A DNA stretch of 23,154 nt, from IMG/VR virus record IMGVR_UViG_3300032675_000141, positions 1 through 23,154 of that record. One strand, 5' to 3'. Position 1 is the stretch's first letter; every line of letters begins with the position of its first letter. Shown here in pieces: positions 8,627-17,806 of this stretch. This DNA is from a virus. The position numbers and the translations under genes are program-made. Below the pieces are notes generated by a model. It saw only the letters and a program-made list of their open reading frames with translations. It was not told where the DNA came from and searched no databases.

Positions 8627-9433
8627 TCAATGTTTAGTAATTCTTAACTTATTTGTCTCTACGCTCGGTGAATACTGCATCATGCTTCTTGCTATGTTAA
8701 ATACTTCAATATTGCTAATAGGAGGGTCGCACCGTTGCATATTCTCTTCTTGTAAACAAGCTAATATTGCTTTAAATGAAACTCCCCTACTTCTTAATGC
8801 CCCACCTATACTACACATATAGGCGTTTCGTAATCCCTCGCCAATCTTTTCCGAGGCAAACTCAAGGTCTTTATTCCTGTTGAGCAATTGTAATACCCAA
8901 GCTGGTGCTCTGACAATAGGACAATCCTCAGGGTCTGAACTGGCTTCCCAATGGTATTCTCCCAAAAGTCCTTTACTTGGGGCTGCGACAATATAGCCAC
9001 CATCGCCACGAGTATCAATACCCCTACCCAACTTGCCAGCAGTAGTCCTAAAACCTTCTTCGTATTGGAAAATGATGTGACGACCACTGGACTGGGTAAT
9101 GGCTTCAACGGTGTCGGGGATGCAACCATATTTTGCTGTAAGCTCGTCAAGGGAATCTTCTCCCCCGTGCCTAGGGTCGATGTCAACGACTCCAATACCT
9201 GAGAGTTGACCAGTTGCAATCCCAATGTTTGCTCTTGGCCAATGTTTGAACCATTCATTGATAGTATCCTTGTCTACCGTTGCAGACTTTAATCCGTTAA
9301 TTGTTTGTGGGTGCTTTCCTGCGCTAGTACATCCCACTTTATTACAAGTGCATTTACCTTCAATGACTGAATGTAAGGGTAGTACGTGCCAGCCTTTTTC
9401 GGCATACTGAACTGCGTGGTCTACTGCTTTCAT
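8627..9433 (-). CDS. Bifunctional DNA primase/polymerase (prim-pol) with PriCT domain
   Basis: 268 residues. The N-terminal prim-pol domain shows the small Cys cluster and GKHP (39-42), GIGVVDIDPRHGG with catalytic D84 and D86, SSGRHIIF (H119) and RGIDTRGDGGYIVAAPS (137-153). The C-terminal part (about 195-255, RNAYMCSIGGALRSRGVSF and NIEVFNIARSMMQY) matches a PriCT domain. It lays primers, and perhaps synthesises DNA, at phage replication forks. Many phage relatives fuse prim-pol to a helicase; here the helicase is a separate SF2 protein whose gene overlaps by four bases (ATGA). The start at 9433 is set by that overlap. Confidence 0.93.
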   Translation of the reverse strand: MKAVDHAVQYAEKGWHVLPLHSVIEGKCTCNKVGCTSAGKHPQTINGLKSATVDKDTINEWFKHWPRANIGIATGQLSGIGVVDIDPRHGGEDSLDELTAKYGCIPDTVEAITQSSGRHIIFQYEEGFRTTAGKLGRGIDTRGDGGYIVAAPSKGLLGEYHWEASSDPEDCPIVRAPAWVLQLLNRNKDLEFASEKIGEGLRNAYMCSIGGALRSRGVSFKAILACLQEENMQRCDPPISNIEVFNIARSMMQYSPSVETNKLRITKH

Positions 9434-13475: not shown

Positions 13476-13694
13476 ATGACTACATGGACACTACAAGATT
13501 TAGACCTATCAAACTACGAACCAGCAAGAAAGGCATTATCCAATGAAGAAATTGACGTTATCGGATTTAATCTTAACTATCCGTTCTCTATTCGAAAAAT
13601 TGCTCGGGCCATCGAAATCGCCCACGGAATTGTCGAGGAGAACAGTATCCAAACCAACACTAACACCAAGGAAGATACCAATGAAAACAGTTAA
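13476..13694 (+). CDS. Hypothetical protein (72 aa)
   Basis: Starts one base after the previous stop. MTTWTLQDLDLSNYEPARKA, a NEEIDVIGFNLNY core, a helical IRKIARAIEIAHGIVEE, and an Asn/Thr-rich tail that overlaps the next gene. No recognised domain. A longer frame at 13543-13914 covers its second half, but that protein's real start is downstream. Confidence 0.7.
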   Translation: MTTWTLQDLDLSNYEPARKALSNEEIDVIGFNLNYPFSIRKIARAIEIAHGIVEENSIQTNTNTKEDTNENS

Positions 13695-13914
13695 AGTTCC
13701 TGCAGTAAAGAAATCAGACGGAAAGATTGTAAAAGCGAAATCTAAAAAGGAGAGCCACGATGACCTTAATACGGAAGGCAAAAGAGGTTTTATACTTTCA
13801 GATGGCAAGTTCGCTGGCAGGGAAGAGGCAGCTACAGTTGCTAAAAAAGCCAAACAAGTTCCTAAGACTATTAAAAAACTTCACTCCGAAGATTTGCGGA
13901 AGAAAAAGAAATGA
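13681..13914 (+). CDS. Basic conserved phage protein (77 aa)
   Basis: The start at 13681 (MKTVKVPAVKKSDGKIV) overlaps the previous stop; an in-frame ATG 138 bases upstream would add residues copied from another gene's frame. A short domain GKRGFILSDGKFAGREEAATVAKKA followed by LHSEDLRKKKK is a pattern I recall in many phage small proteins (RGF-x-x-S-DG-x-F-x-x-R-x-EA ... LHSEDL). About one third of residues are Lys/Arg, so nucleic-acid binding is likely. Function unknown. Confidence 0.75.
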   Translation: MKTVKVPAVKKSDGKIVKAKSKKESHDDLNTEGKRGFILSDGKFAGREEAATVAKKAKQVPKTIKKLHSEDLRKKKK

Positions 13915-14010: not shown

Positions 14011-14232
14011 ATGGGAGAAATTATTGAGTTTCCAGAAGGCACTGTAGGGGATGTTCCAATAGATTCAGTACTTGAGGGAGCTAAGGTATTACAGATGGTC
14101 TGCATCATGGGGTACACAGCAGATGGTAATGAATACTTTGCCAGTAGCTGTGGTGACATTAAAGAGATTAATTGGCTGTTAGATAGATATAAAAACTTTT
14201 TACAGGGGATTGCAGATGAAGGAATGGAATGA
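14011..14232 (+). CDS. Hypothetical protein (73 aa)
   Basis: Preceded by AGGGGG. Sequence MGEIIEFPEGTVGDVPIDSV, then ADGNEYFASSCGDIKEINWL, a small alpha/beta fold common among phage accessory proteins as I recall. One DG-x-x-YFASS strand and a helical LLDRYKNFL close. It overlaps the first cupin-like gene by 17 bases. No recognised catalytic residue. Confidence 0.7.
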   Translation: MGEIIEFPEGTVGDVPIDSVLEGAKVLQMVCIMGYTADGNEYFASSCGDIKEINWLLDRYKNFLQGIADEGME

Positions 14233-14713
14233 AGTAGAAGCATTTAAGGATTGGTGGATTGCTGCAGGGTGTCCTATTAGACCTCCGTTTGAATACCCAA
14301 TTCATATTACGGATATGGCATACGCTTTGACTGTATATCGTAAGGGACAGTATCAAGTTGAGTTATACATTTGTAAACCCAATACAGAAACTCAAGTTCA
14401 CGCTCATCCAGGTATTGAGTCATTGTCAGTTTATTTAACAGGTAATCTGTCTTTTGCTACGAATGGTGCTCCATTCCCCGACTTATCTCAATATCAAAAA
14501 GAAGGTGCAAACGGAACACATTTGTTATTGGGTAAATCATTGGAATCAATCAATGGTACCCCCCATGCACTAAAGGTAAATCAAGAAGGTGGTTCATTTC
14601 TATTATTTCAAAGATGGGCTAACAAGAAGCCACGCTCAGTAGCAGTTGAATATGATGGAGTAACACTAGGCCATAAACACGACAAACAAATTGAGGTTGC
14701 AAATGTGGAATAA
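14216..14713 (+). CDS. Cupin-like protein, tandem copy 1 (165 aa)
   Basis: Start chosen at ATG 14216, with GGGG eight bases upstream. The cupin metal site is visible: VHAHPGIES (H62, H64, E68) followed seven residues later by G, and TPHALK (H117) as the likely fourth ligand. WxxAGCPIRPPFEYP near the N-terminus and EGGSFLLFQRWANKKP near the C-terminus are shared with the next gene. Cupins range from sugar epimerases and dioxygenases to non-enzymatic sensors, and nothing here tells which. There is no signal peptide, so the protein is cytoplasmic or virion-bound. Confidence 0.8.
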   Translation: MKEWNEVEAFKDWWIAAGCPIRPPFEYPIHITDMAYALTVYRKGQYQVELYICKPNTETQVHAHPGIESLSVYLTGNLSFATNGAPFPDLSQYQKEGANGTHLLLGKSLESINGTPHALKVNQEGGSFLLFQRWANKKPRSVAVEYDGVTLGHKHDKQIEVANVE

Positions 14714-15194
14714 CGTTCAAGAATTCAGAGATTGGTATATGAGTAGTGGTATGCCATTAAGACCACCATTTAAGAATCCAGTATTTCATACTGACAATGC
14801 AATGTCATTGTGTATGTTTAGAGAGGGGCGATTTCAAGTTGAGTTGTATTTGACTGAGCCATATAGCACTACTCCACCACATACTCATCCTGGAGTAGAG
14901 TCTGCATTTGTTTATTTGGCAGGGAACATTCAATTCTATCTTGAAGGTAGGGATAACCCTGATGTTCAACAATGGCAAAAATCAAATGAAAATGGTAATC
15001 ATTTTTTACTTGGAACCACTGTTGATTCTCCTGATATGACGCCTCATTGGTTAAATATTGGGCCTGAAGGTGGGGCATTCCTTAGTTTTGAATATTGGAA
15101 GAATGAAGACCCTGTTTCAGTAACAGTGAACTGGCAAGGACAAACGGTTGGAACAGAGCACGATAAAACTATAGAGAGTGTAAAACATGAGTAA
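14703..15194 (+). CDS. Cupin-like protein, tandem copy 2 (163 aa)
   Basis: Start ATG 14703, preceded by GAGGTTG, overlaps the first copy by 11 bases. It aligns end to end with that copy: SSGMPLRPPFKNP, FQVELYL, PPHTHPGVES (H60, H62, E66), FLLGTT, TPHWLNIGPEGGAFLSF (H115) and the closing TVGTEHDKTIE. All putative metal ligands are retained in both, so both are probably active and may form a heterodimer. Divergence is considerable, implying an old duplication or acquisition as a pair. Confidence 0.8.
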   Translation: MWNNVQEFRDWYMSSGMPLRPPFKNPVFHTDNAMSLCMFREGRFQVELYLTEPYSTTPPHTHPGVESAFVYLAGNIQFYLEGRDNPDVQQWQKSNENGNHFLLGTTVDSPDMTPHWLNIGPEGGAFLSFEYWKNEDPVSVTVNWQGQTVGTEHDKTIESVKHE

Positions 15195-16669: not shown

Positions 16670-17806
16670 ATGAATTATTTATCAGTATGTAGTGGAATAG
16701 AAGCTGCTACTTGTGCATGGAAAAGTCTTGGTTGGAAACCTGTAGGTTTCTCTGAGATTGAACCATTCCCAAGTGCTGTGCTTAAACATCATTATCCATC
16801 TGTTCCAAATTTAGGGGACATGAATAAATATAAGGAGTGGAATCTTGAATCAGTTGGACTTTTGGTCGGAGGAACTCCCTGCCAATCATTCAGTGTTGCA
16901 GGGCTTAGAAAAGGACTTGAAGACCCAAGGGGGAACCTTGCCCTTAGCTATGTCGGAATTCTTGACCACTTTAGACCCAAGTGGTTCGTATGGGAAAACG
17001 TGCCAGGTGTCCTCAGTTCAAATGGTGGACGGGATTTTGGTTCCTTTCTCGGGGCGTTGGTCAAAATCGGGTATGGGTGGTCATATCGGGTGCTTGATGC
17101 TCAATACTTTGGAGTCCCACAAAGACGCAGAAGAGTGTTTGTTGTCGGATGTCTTGGAGACTGGGAATCTGCCGCAAAAGTTCTATTTGAGTCCGACTGC
17201 TTGTCAGGGAATAATACGAAGAGCAGAGTTAAGAAAGAAGCAACTGCCACCTATTCTGAAAGAGGCATTGCATACGGTGGCACAGATGGAGAGTGTGCCG
17301 ACACCGTAACAAGCAAGTGGGCTAAAGGTAGTGGTGGGCCGTCTGGTAGTGAGTGTGGATTGTTTGTAGCCCATAAGGTATATGAAACACACCCTGCAGA
17401 TAGCCGAGTCAAAGAGATGGGTGAAGTATGTCAGACCGTTACAAGTCGTTGGGGAACTGGCGGTGGGAATGTCCCATTGGTTCAGGCTTATAGTATTCGA
17501 GAAGATGCTAAAGCGAATAACTTTAGTGCTACTCCATTAGAAGTAACTCCTGCATTACAAGCTATGCAGCCAAGTGTTCAATCACACCATGCTCAGACCT
17601 TTATAGCAGGTAATATGGCAGTCCGTAGATTAACACCTAGGGAATGCGAGAGGTTGCAGGGGTTCAAGGATGACTATACAATTATTCCTTGGAAAAAGGG
17701 GGAATCACCAGACGGTCACCGCTACAAGGCATTAGGTAACTCGATGGCAGTTCCAGTTATGAAGTGGATAGGGGAGAGAATCAATGAAGTTAACAAACAA
17801 ATTTAA
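16670..17806 (+). CDS. DNA (cytosine-5) methyltransferase
   Basis: 378 residues with all C5-MTase landmarks: motif I SVCSGIEAA (5-13), motif IV GGTPCQSFS with catalytic C71, motif VI FVWENVPG (106-113), motif VIII AQYFGVPQRRRRVFVVG (144-160), motif IX RRLTPRECERLQGF (about 320-333) and motif X YKALGNSMAVPV. The target-recognition region (about 175-315) contains echoing units ADTVTSKW-x-KGSGG, CQTVTSRWGTGGG and TPALQAMQPSVQSHH. It probably protects phage DNA from host restriction. The GTTTG-free leader has AAGGGG before the ATG. A second frame is coded inside it (16845-17309). Confidence 0.96.
   Translation: MNYLSVCSGIEAATCAWKSLGWKPVGFSEIEPFPSAVLKHHYPSVPNLGDMNKYKEWNLESVGLLVGGTPCQSFSVAGLRKGLEDPRGNLALSYVGILDHFRPKWFVWENVPGVLSSNGGRDFGSFLGALVKIGYGWSYRVLDAQYFGVPQRRRRVFVVGCLGDWESAAKVLFESDCLSGNNTKSRVKKEATATYSERGIAYGGTDGECADTVTSKWAKGSGGPSGSECGLFVAHKVYETHPADSRVKEMGEVCQTVTSRWGTGGGNVPLVQAYSIREDAKANNFSATPLEVTPALQAMQPSVQSHHAQTFIAGNMAVRRLTPRECERLQGFKDDYTIIPWKKGESPDGHRYKALGNSMAVPVMKWIGERINEVNKQI
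16845..17309 (+). CDS. Overprinted ORF inside the methyltransferase, +1 frame (154 aa)
   Basis: This frame opens after a TGA at 16821, has a near-perfect AAGGAG at 16832-16837 and a TTG start seven bases later. It spans methyltransferase residues 59-213. The product reads MNQLDFWSEELPANHSVLQG, has PSGSYGKTCQV, VPFSGRWSKSGMGG and LSDVLETG, and ends in a helical, basic module (FYLSPTACQGIIRRAELRKK, then LPPILKEALHTVA). That module looks like true protein, and I recall phage hypothetical proteins with the same DVLETG ... LS-x-ACxGILRRA ending. Function unknown. It overlaps the sequence for motifs IV-VIII, where double constraint should be visible. Confidence 0.7.
   Translation: MNQLDFWSEELPANHSVLQGLEKDLKTQGGTLPLAMSEFLTTLDPSGSYGKTCQVSSVQMVDGILVPFSGRWSKSGMGGHIGCLMLNTLESHKDAEECLLSDVLETGNLPQKFYLSPTACQGIIRRAELRKKQLPPILKEALHTVAQMESVPTP

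Follow-up and report, generated by a model that had tools for sequence, protein, structure and literature searches.

A nested gene, very probably protein-coding, in the +1 frame of phage C5-cytosine DNA methyltransferases

Nested viral genes and the methyltransferase locus

Complete genes that lie on the same strand inside another gene, in a shifted frame, are already known in viruses (reviewed in PMC8227390). Examples conserved over many viruses include lambda Rz1, which is encoded inside Rz (PMC5295617), nested genes of phiX174, and tymovirus p69, which lies in the methyltransferase domain of the replicase. The locus described here has the same layout. It differs in that the host gene is a DNA cytosine methyltransferase (MTase), which is not the case in Rz/Rz1, phiX174 or the tymoviruses, and in that the nested product is soluble-looking, basic and helical, unlike the membrane or movement proteins of the known nested genes. 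No homology of this product to known overprinted viral genes was found. Annotators have called the +1 frame in isolated genomes, without comment, and a search of open-access full text (which does not reach subscription papers and preprints) found no description of a gene within phage cytosine methyltransferases. The nested MTase gene is thus apparently undescribed so far, although nested overlapping genes as such are known.

The DNA analysed here, referred to as the window, is the whole stretch of 23,154 bases of the IMG/VR virus record IMGVR_UViG_3300032675_000141. It carries an intact MTase gene (Table 1), whose membership of the C5-cytosine DNA methyltransferases is supported by the PF00145 match and by motifs IV, VI, VIII, IX and X. 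A sequence-only reading of the window had proposed that a 154-codon frame lies wholly inside this gene in the +1 frame, that it starts with TTG seven bases after AAGGAG, and that it crosses the catalytic motifs IV-VIII. All three points held on mapping, with PCQ, ENV and QRRRR translated from within the overlap. On the comparative evidence given below, this frame is very probably a real gene that codes for a protein and overprints a phage C5-cytosine MTase in +1. This judgement concerns coding only and is inferred from sequences, as there is no direct evidence of translation.

Table 1. Features of the MTase locus, in window coordinates.
Feature	Position	Strand	Basis
C5-cytosine DNA methyltransferase gene, frame 0, intact, 378 aa	16670-17806	+	ORF translation; PF00145 9e-57, TIGR00675 1.2e-57
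Putative nested gene, +1 frame, TTG start, 154 aa	16845-17309	+	ORF list, stop mapping, synonymous-site analysis
Putative Shine-Dalgarno AAGGAG of nested gene, within MTase codons K-E	16832-16837	+	7 bases before TTG
N-terminal part of nested product, predicted disordered, overlapping MTase motifs IV-VIII	16845-17132	+	AlphaFold2 pLDDT, synonymous ratio
Predicted C-terminal basic three-helix module, residues ~97-150, just 3' of MTase motif VIII	17133-17294	+	Predicted helices, invariant residues, +1 codon rhythm
MTase motif IV PCQ (catalytic Cys), codons 70-72, dual-coding	16877-16885	+	Translation
MTase motif VI ENV, codons 109-111, dual-coding	16994-17002	+	Translation
MTase motif VIII QRRRR, codons 151-155, dual-coding	17120-17134	+	Translation

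Elsewhere in the window, a 150-aa ATG frame (8806-9258, minus strand) overlaps a 268-aa gene on the same strand (8627-9433), and a 105-aa ORF (13536-13853, minus strand) lies antisense to most of a 123-aa basic gene (13543-13914, plus strand), probably by chance. Two neighbouring 167-aa genes (14210-15194, plus strand) resemble tandem paralogues; they have a common HxHPGxES motif and are perhaps cupin-like.

Coding signals in the +1 frame

Each +1-frame stop of 109 distinct homologous MTases from viral contigs was placed on the codon numbering of the window. The stops are confined to codons 1-59 and to codons 206 and beyond, with a single stop in total across codons 60-205. Codon 59 alone accounts for 52 of them, each immediately 5' of an ATG start that replaces the TTG. 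In the tested stretch, 53 stops were observed against about 438 expected from codon-preserving shuffles, and all but one of the 53 are this pre-ATG stop, while the +2 frame has no deficit at all (954 against 916). The view that a long chance ORF would be unlikely here, which had been taken from the window alone, is borne out by these counts.

Synonymous variation in the MTase frame follows the same boundaries. Among 107 sequences (5583 pairs), the ratio of observed to expected is 0.94 in codons 2-52, 0.465 in the overlap, and 0.90 and 0.95 downstream, with a minimum of 0.13 near codon 190. The ratio is already lowered, to 0.64, in codons 53-58, where the Shine-Dalgarno site lies, and the N-terminal part of the nested gene is constrained (0.34-0.66) even though its product is predicted to be disordered. 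The sequence-only reading had named the absence of such a drop as part of what would refute it, and the fall to 0.47 from 0.90-0.95 outside recurs in three further sets: P1-like MTases (75 sequences; 0.447 inside, 0.90/0.92 outside), Firmicutes phages (61 sequences; 0.548 inside, 0.91/0.94 outside), and prophages (0.548 inside, about 0.92 downstream). The first homologue sets were partly collected through similarity to the nested product. The prophage set was picked by MTase similarity alone and, since the search was made with the MTase protein, selection bias on the nested product is removed.

The clearest difference between the two frames is found in the C-terminal module. In all four sets, the most variable base there is the third position of the +1 codon, which is the first position of the MTase codon. 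Read in the +1 frame, the module has a synonymous ratio of 0.61-0.71; read in the MTase frame, it has one of 0.18-0.31. In these alignments, it is demonstrably the nested frame that prevails in DNA evolution directly 3' of MTase motif VIII, and variation there has been interpreted in the wrong frame for this group of MTases.

The initiation signals are also retained. The Lys-Glu pair whose codons contain the Shine-Dalgarno site is written AAGGAG in 65 of 92 homologues, against 13 expected from codon usage, and the nested starts are TTG in 51 cases and ATG in 58. With a simple motif list, a start preceded by a Shine-Dalgarno sequence was found in 91 of 109 window-type genes, 73 of 76 from Firmicutes, 68 of 78 from prophages and 34 of 78 from the P1-like set, compared with about 10% of control start codons. 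These counts are generous, because the best of several candidate starts was taken for each gene. Most homologues have nonetheless been shown to keep an own start and a putative ribosome-binding site. Stop avoidance, synonymous suppression limited to the overlap, and +1 codon periodicity with purifying selection, all of which are expected of an overprinted gene, are thus present, together with a conserved start and Shine-Dalgarno sequence, for which the P1-like set gives weaker support.

An open and seemingly conserved +1 frame might be no more than a by-product of MTase sequence conservation and codon usage, without any translation. The conservation of MTase motifs does give partial +1 similarity, to the extent that the family profile weakly matches stop-filled +1 frames of other MTases, and long chance +1 ORFs occur in GC-rich MTases without the module (for example, one of 167 aa at locus L416). 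Against this, stops are avoided far beyond what codon-preserving shuffles produce and only in the +1 frame, synonymous suppression is limited to the ORF in four sets, and within the module conservation follows the +1 frame and not that of the MTase. With +1 periodicity present in MTase-selected sequences too, chance and codon usage are ruled out, and we give a passive origin of the signal almost no credence. An RNA structure, or a DNA or RNA regulatory element, earns equally little; it could by itself cause synonymous suppression, but the constraint extends over about 145 codons with a +1 rhythm, the +1 synonymous sites are far freer than those of the MTase, the edges of the constraint are the start, Shine-Dalgarno sequence and stop of the nested gene, and the protein motifs are common to distant phages. 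No RNA fold test was made, and it is the codon rhythm in the module that largely refutes such an element, as neither it nor a passive by-product would produce this rhythm.

Coding could also be genuine without a separate start, if the module were produced as a frameshift fusion to the MTase N-terminus. The module does lie downstream of conserved MTase domains on the same transcript, and a slippery motif was not specifically sought. This possibility is nevertheless very improbable given the +1 stop directly before the ATG start in 52 of the 109 homologues and the prevalence of starts preceded by a Shine-Dalgarno sequence in the window-type, Firmicutes and prophage sets. An overprinted gene translated from its own start remains the preferred reading.

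Distribution, linkage to the MTase and origin

A tblastn search with the nested product retrieved 114 phage records at 1e-5, and a search with the consensus module retrieved 132 phage and 531 plasmid records. The plasmids are mostly from Escherichia and are probably P1-like phage-plasmids, as inferred from their size and from the Dam-family label on the host gene. The carriers comprise phages of Proteobacteria, Firmicutes, Actinobacteria, Cyanobacteria and Verrucomicrobia, and MTases of this subfamily contain the nested gene in hundreds of further phages and prophages, coliphage P1 among them. In each locus examined in detail, the nested frame is +1 of the MTase; these are P1 dmt, CobraSix, Terrisporobacter, Ruminococcus, Oscillospirales, Aeromonas, Pectobacterium, mycobacteriophage Porcelain, cyanophage Pan4, Akkermansia phage Chantilly, Streptococcus Javan261, Roseobacter CRP-822 and Sinorhizobium NV1.1.1. 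The protein search that had been proposed as a check therefore placed its matches where an overprinted gene requires them. The suggestion of a widespread dual-coding locus is likewise supported, by phages from five bacterial phyla and by the prophages. Among MTase-selected prophage loci, the frame is present in 80 of 80 (profile E-value <=1.4e-29), so that the outcome that would have refuted the proposal, MTases of the subfamily without the frame, did not materialise; the frame is also present in all MTase-selected viral loci.

Profile searches of bacterial genomes gave matches in 6 of 398 genomes in a sample of Caballeronia's phylum, and in 21 of 398 in a sample of the phylum of the Bacillota MAG behind locus L371. 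All of the random-genome loci except one (L507) have the nested frame in +1 relative to an MTase, although several are decayed or have diverged strongly. In 26 whole genomes, 33 matches coincide with PF00145 matches by coordinates, and the hand-checked offsets are +1. No detached copy of the nested gene was found among the viral loci, among these 33 matches or among the matches in about 796 random genomes. Apparent exceptions were discarded: L478 and gp104 of Mycobacterium phage Thibault are decayed or interrupted MTase loci, and in L507 the match was to the MTase frame itself. The module is absent from 14 other C5-MTases used as controls, of which 12 are encoded in the same bacterial genomes and 2 by the same Terrisporobacter phage, and their +1 frames have stops in the matched region.

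Decay of the locus goes both ways. In L176, L274 and L316, the MTase frame has acquired stops and the nested frame is still open, while in L041 and L329 the nested frame is lost and the MTase is kept. A single stop in the nested frame is found in L250.

In a tree of MTase motifs I-VIII, all 36 carriers fall on one side of a branch (support 87/81). When eight divergent carriers from random genomes are added, the trait requires several changes and a non-carrier clade is nested among the divergent carriers, which undoes the simple picture of one origin; a single origin with losses and repeated gain are both compatible with this tree. The divergent loci (L479, L500, L501, L502, L504, L505, L506 and L508) encode divergent, partly Dcm-like MTases with a +1 ORF of about 155-180 aa that has a weaker version of the module, for example CSLSAILIPDAPGKYFLSSEQ. 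They suggest a deeper family, although selection on these frames is untested, and a related +1 frame in divergent MTases may point to an even earlier origin followed by losses. No viral matches were obtained when the product of L504, one of these divergent loci, was used as the query. Dual coding over the catalytic core of an enzyme has been kept here despite deep divergence, and in one segment the nested frame is the dominant one, which makes the locus a suitable natural example for work on the persistence of overprinted genes.

The predicted product, its annotated relatives and its possible role

The nested product would be small, with a flexible N-terminal part followed by a compact, basic domain at the C-terminus. 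In the AlphaFold2 model, residues 1-95 are mostly disordered (pLDDT about 40-64) and residues 97-150 form three helices (100-106, 117-129 and 136-150), of which the last two reach a pLDDT of about 90-95. A coherent helical basic module at the C-terminus, as had been read from the window, is therefore also what structure prediction returns. Twelve residues are invariant in 55 diverse sequences (L100, L104, L115, A119, C120, G122, R126, A127, L134, P135, L138 and L142), and the module has a basic stretch R-R-A-x-x-R-(G/K)-K. The product has no significant sequence match in Pfam, NCBIfam or PDB and no significant fold match in PDB, and among Pfam, NCBIfam and solved folds it matches none of the known DNA-binding or controller families (C-protein, HTH). 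In PADLOC, the window protein has no match, and another member has only marginal MTase_II scores (E ~0.009).

Ribosomes are inferred to initiate internally on the MTase message and to translate the nested frame independently, in which case each MTase transcript would yield both proteins. The nested product might then bind to the enzyme, to the DNA that the enzyme targets or to its own operator, and so adjust MTase activity or expression. A role tied to the MTase, as partner or regulator, is the likeliest reading, with roughly an even chance of being correct; expression and function are untested. It is favoured because no copy was found detached from the MTase locus, although phage genes shuffle freely. 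Obligate linkage favours a partner or modulator role without showing it. In the fuller picture, a phage MTase subfamily would carry a small regulator or partner of its own inside the coding sequence of its catalytic domain, inseparably and on one message; the arrangement would be ancient and so far overlooked, extending over phages of five or more bacterial phyla, P1 among them. This picture is advanced tentatively and falls a little short of even.

The nested protein may instead be real but have a job unrelated to methylation, such as counter-defence against modification-dependent 5mC restriction or another host-directed function, with the MTase gene a convenient carrier. Many of the factors that phages use for host takeover or against restriction are small, basic and partly disordered, and the few decayed loci that keep the nested frame open beside a broken MTase fit such a role. 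Decay in the opposite direction does not, nor does the lack of a detached copy in mosaic phage genomes, and PADLOC offers no family beyond the marginal MTase_II scores. This alternative is a real but less favoured possibility, and a role tied to the MTase remains preferred.

The closest well-studied relative is the bifunctional DNA methyltransferase gene dmt of P1, whose nested +1 frame is 56% identical to that of the window over 64 residues and is absent from the annotated features of the P1 record. The predicted tryptic peptides of the nested P1 product include QITPSDVSLPDWLEK, HLNQVIDLNQEK and SVVVFMDR. Dmt peptides have been detected by LC-MS/MS in P1 virion preparations (PMC9024508). As the dmt locus was non-essential by CRISPRi in the laboratory (PMC10695390), any role of the nested protein would be conditional. 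The nested gene represents a new protein family for the very well studied phage P1, and for many phages and prophages, at a site that annotation pipelines do not search for genes, and mutants or constructs of dmt-like genes affect two genes simultaneously.

The sequence-only reading had mentioned phage hypothetical proteins with the same DVLETG ... ACxGILRRA ending, and such entries exist. Thibault gp104 (YP_009018115.1) and a CDS of the P1-like phage 813R1 (WMM35488.1) are hypothetical proteins annotated in the nested frame. They differ from the window product in that gp104 is a truncated form, and in that 813R1 (L162/L333) has a broken dmt MTase frame as well as a frameshift in the nested C-terminal module. 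In a viral fold library, the only relatives are gp104, which is the best, and a 521-aa phage entry named 'cytosine specific methyltransferase'. PHROG_16143 matches 36 of 66 family members (best 5.2e-14; the window at 1.7e-6 over 26-131 of 139) and PHROG_1008 matches 7 of 66. These profiles match the +1 frame, so some annotators called it, but their label, 'DNA methyltransferase', is unsuited to that frame and dual coding is unmentioned.

Several of these entries have peculiarities of their own. In Thibault (L324, 341-2142), the MTase is interrupted after motif VIII by an inserted HNH endonuclease gene, and of the nested gene only the C-terminal module is left, as gp104, with a new start. In Mycobacterium phage Porcelain (L326, 1320-2520), the annotation splits the MTase into two genes, of which the second is in the frame of the nested gene. 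PHROG_1008 matches the nested frame in the window but the C-terminal fragment of the MTase in Thibault, and looks like a chimera of both.
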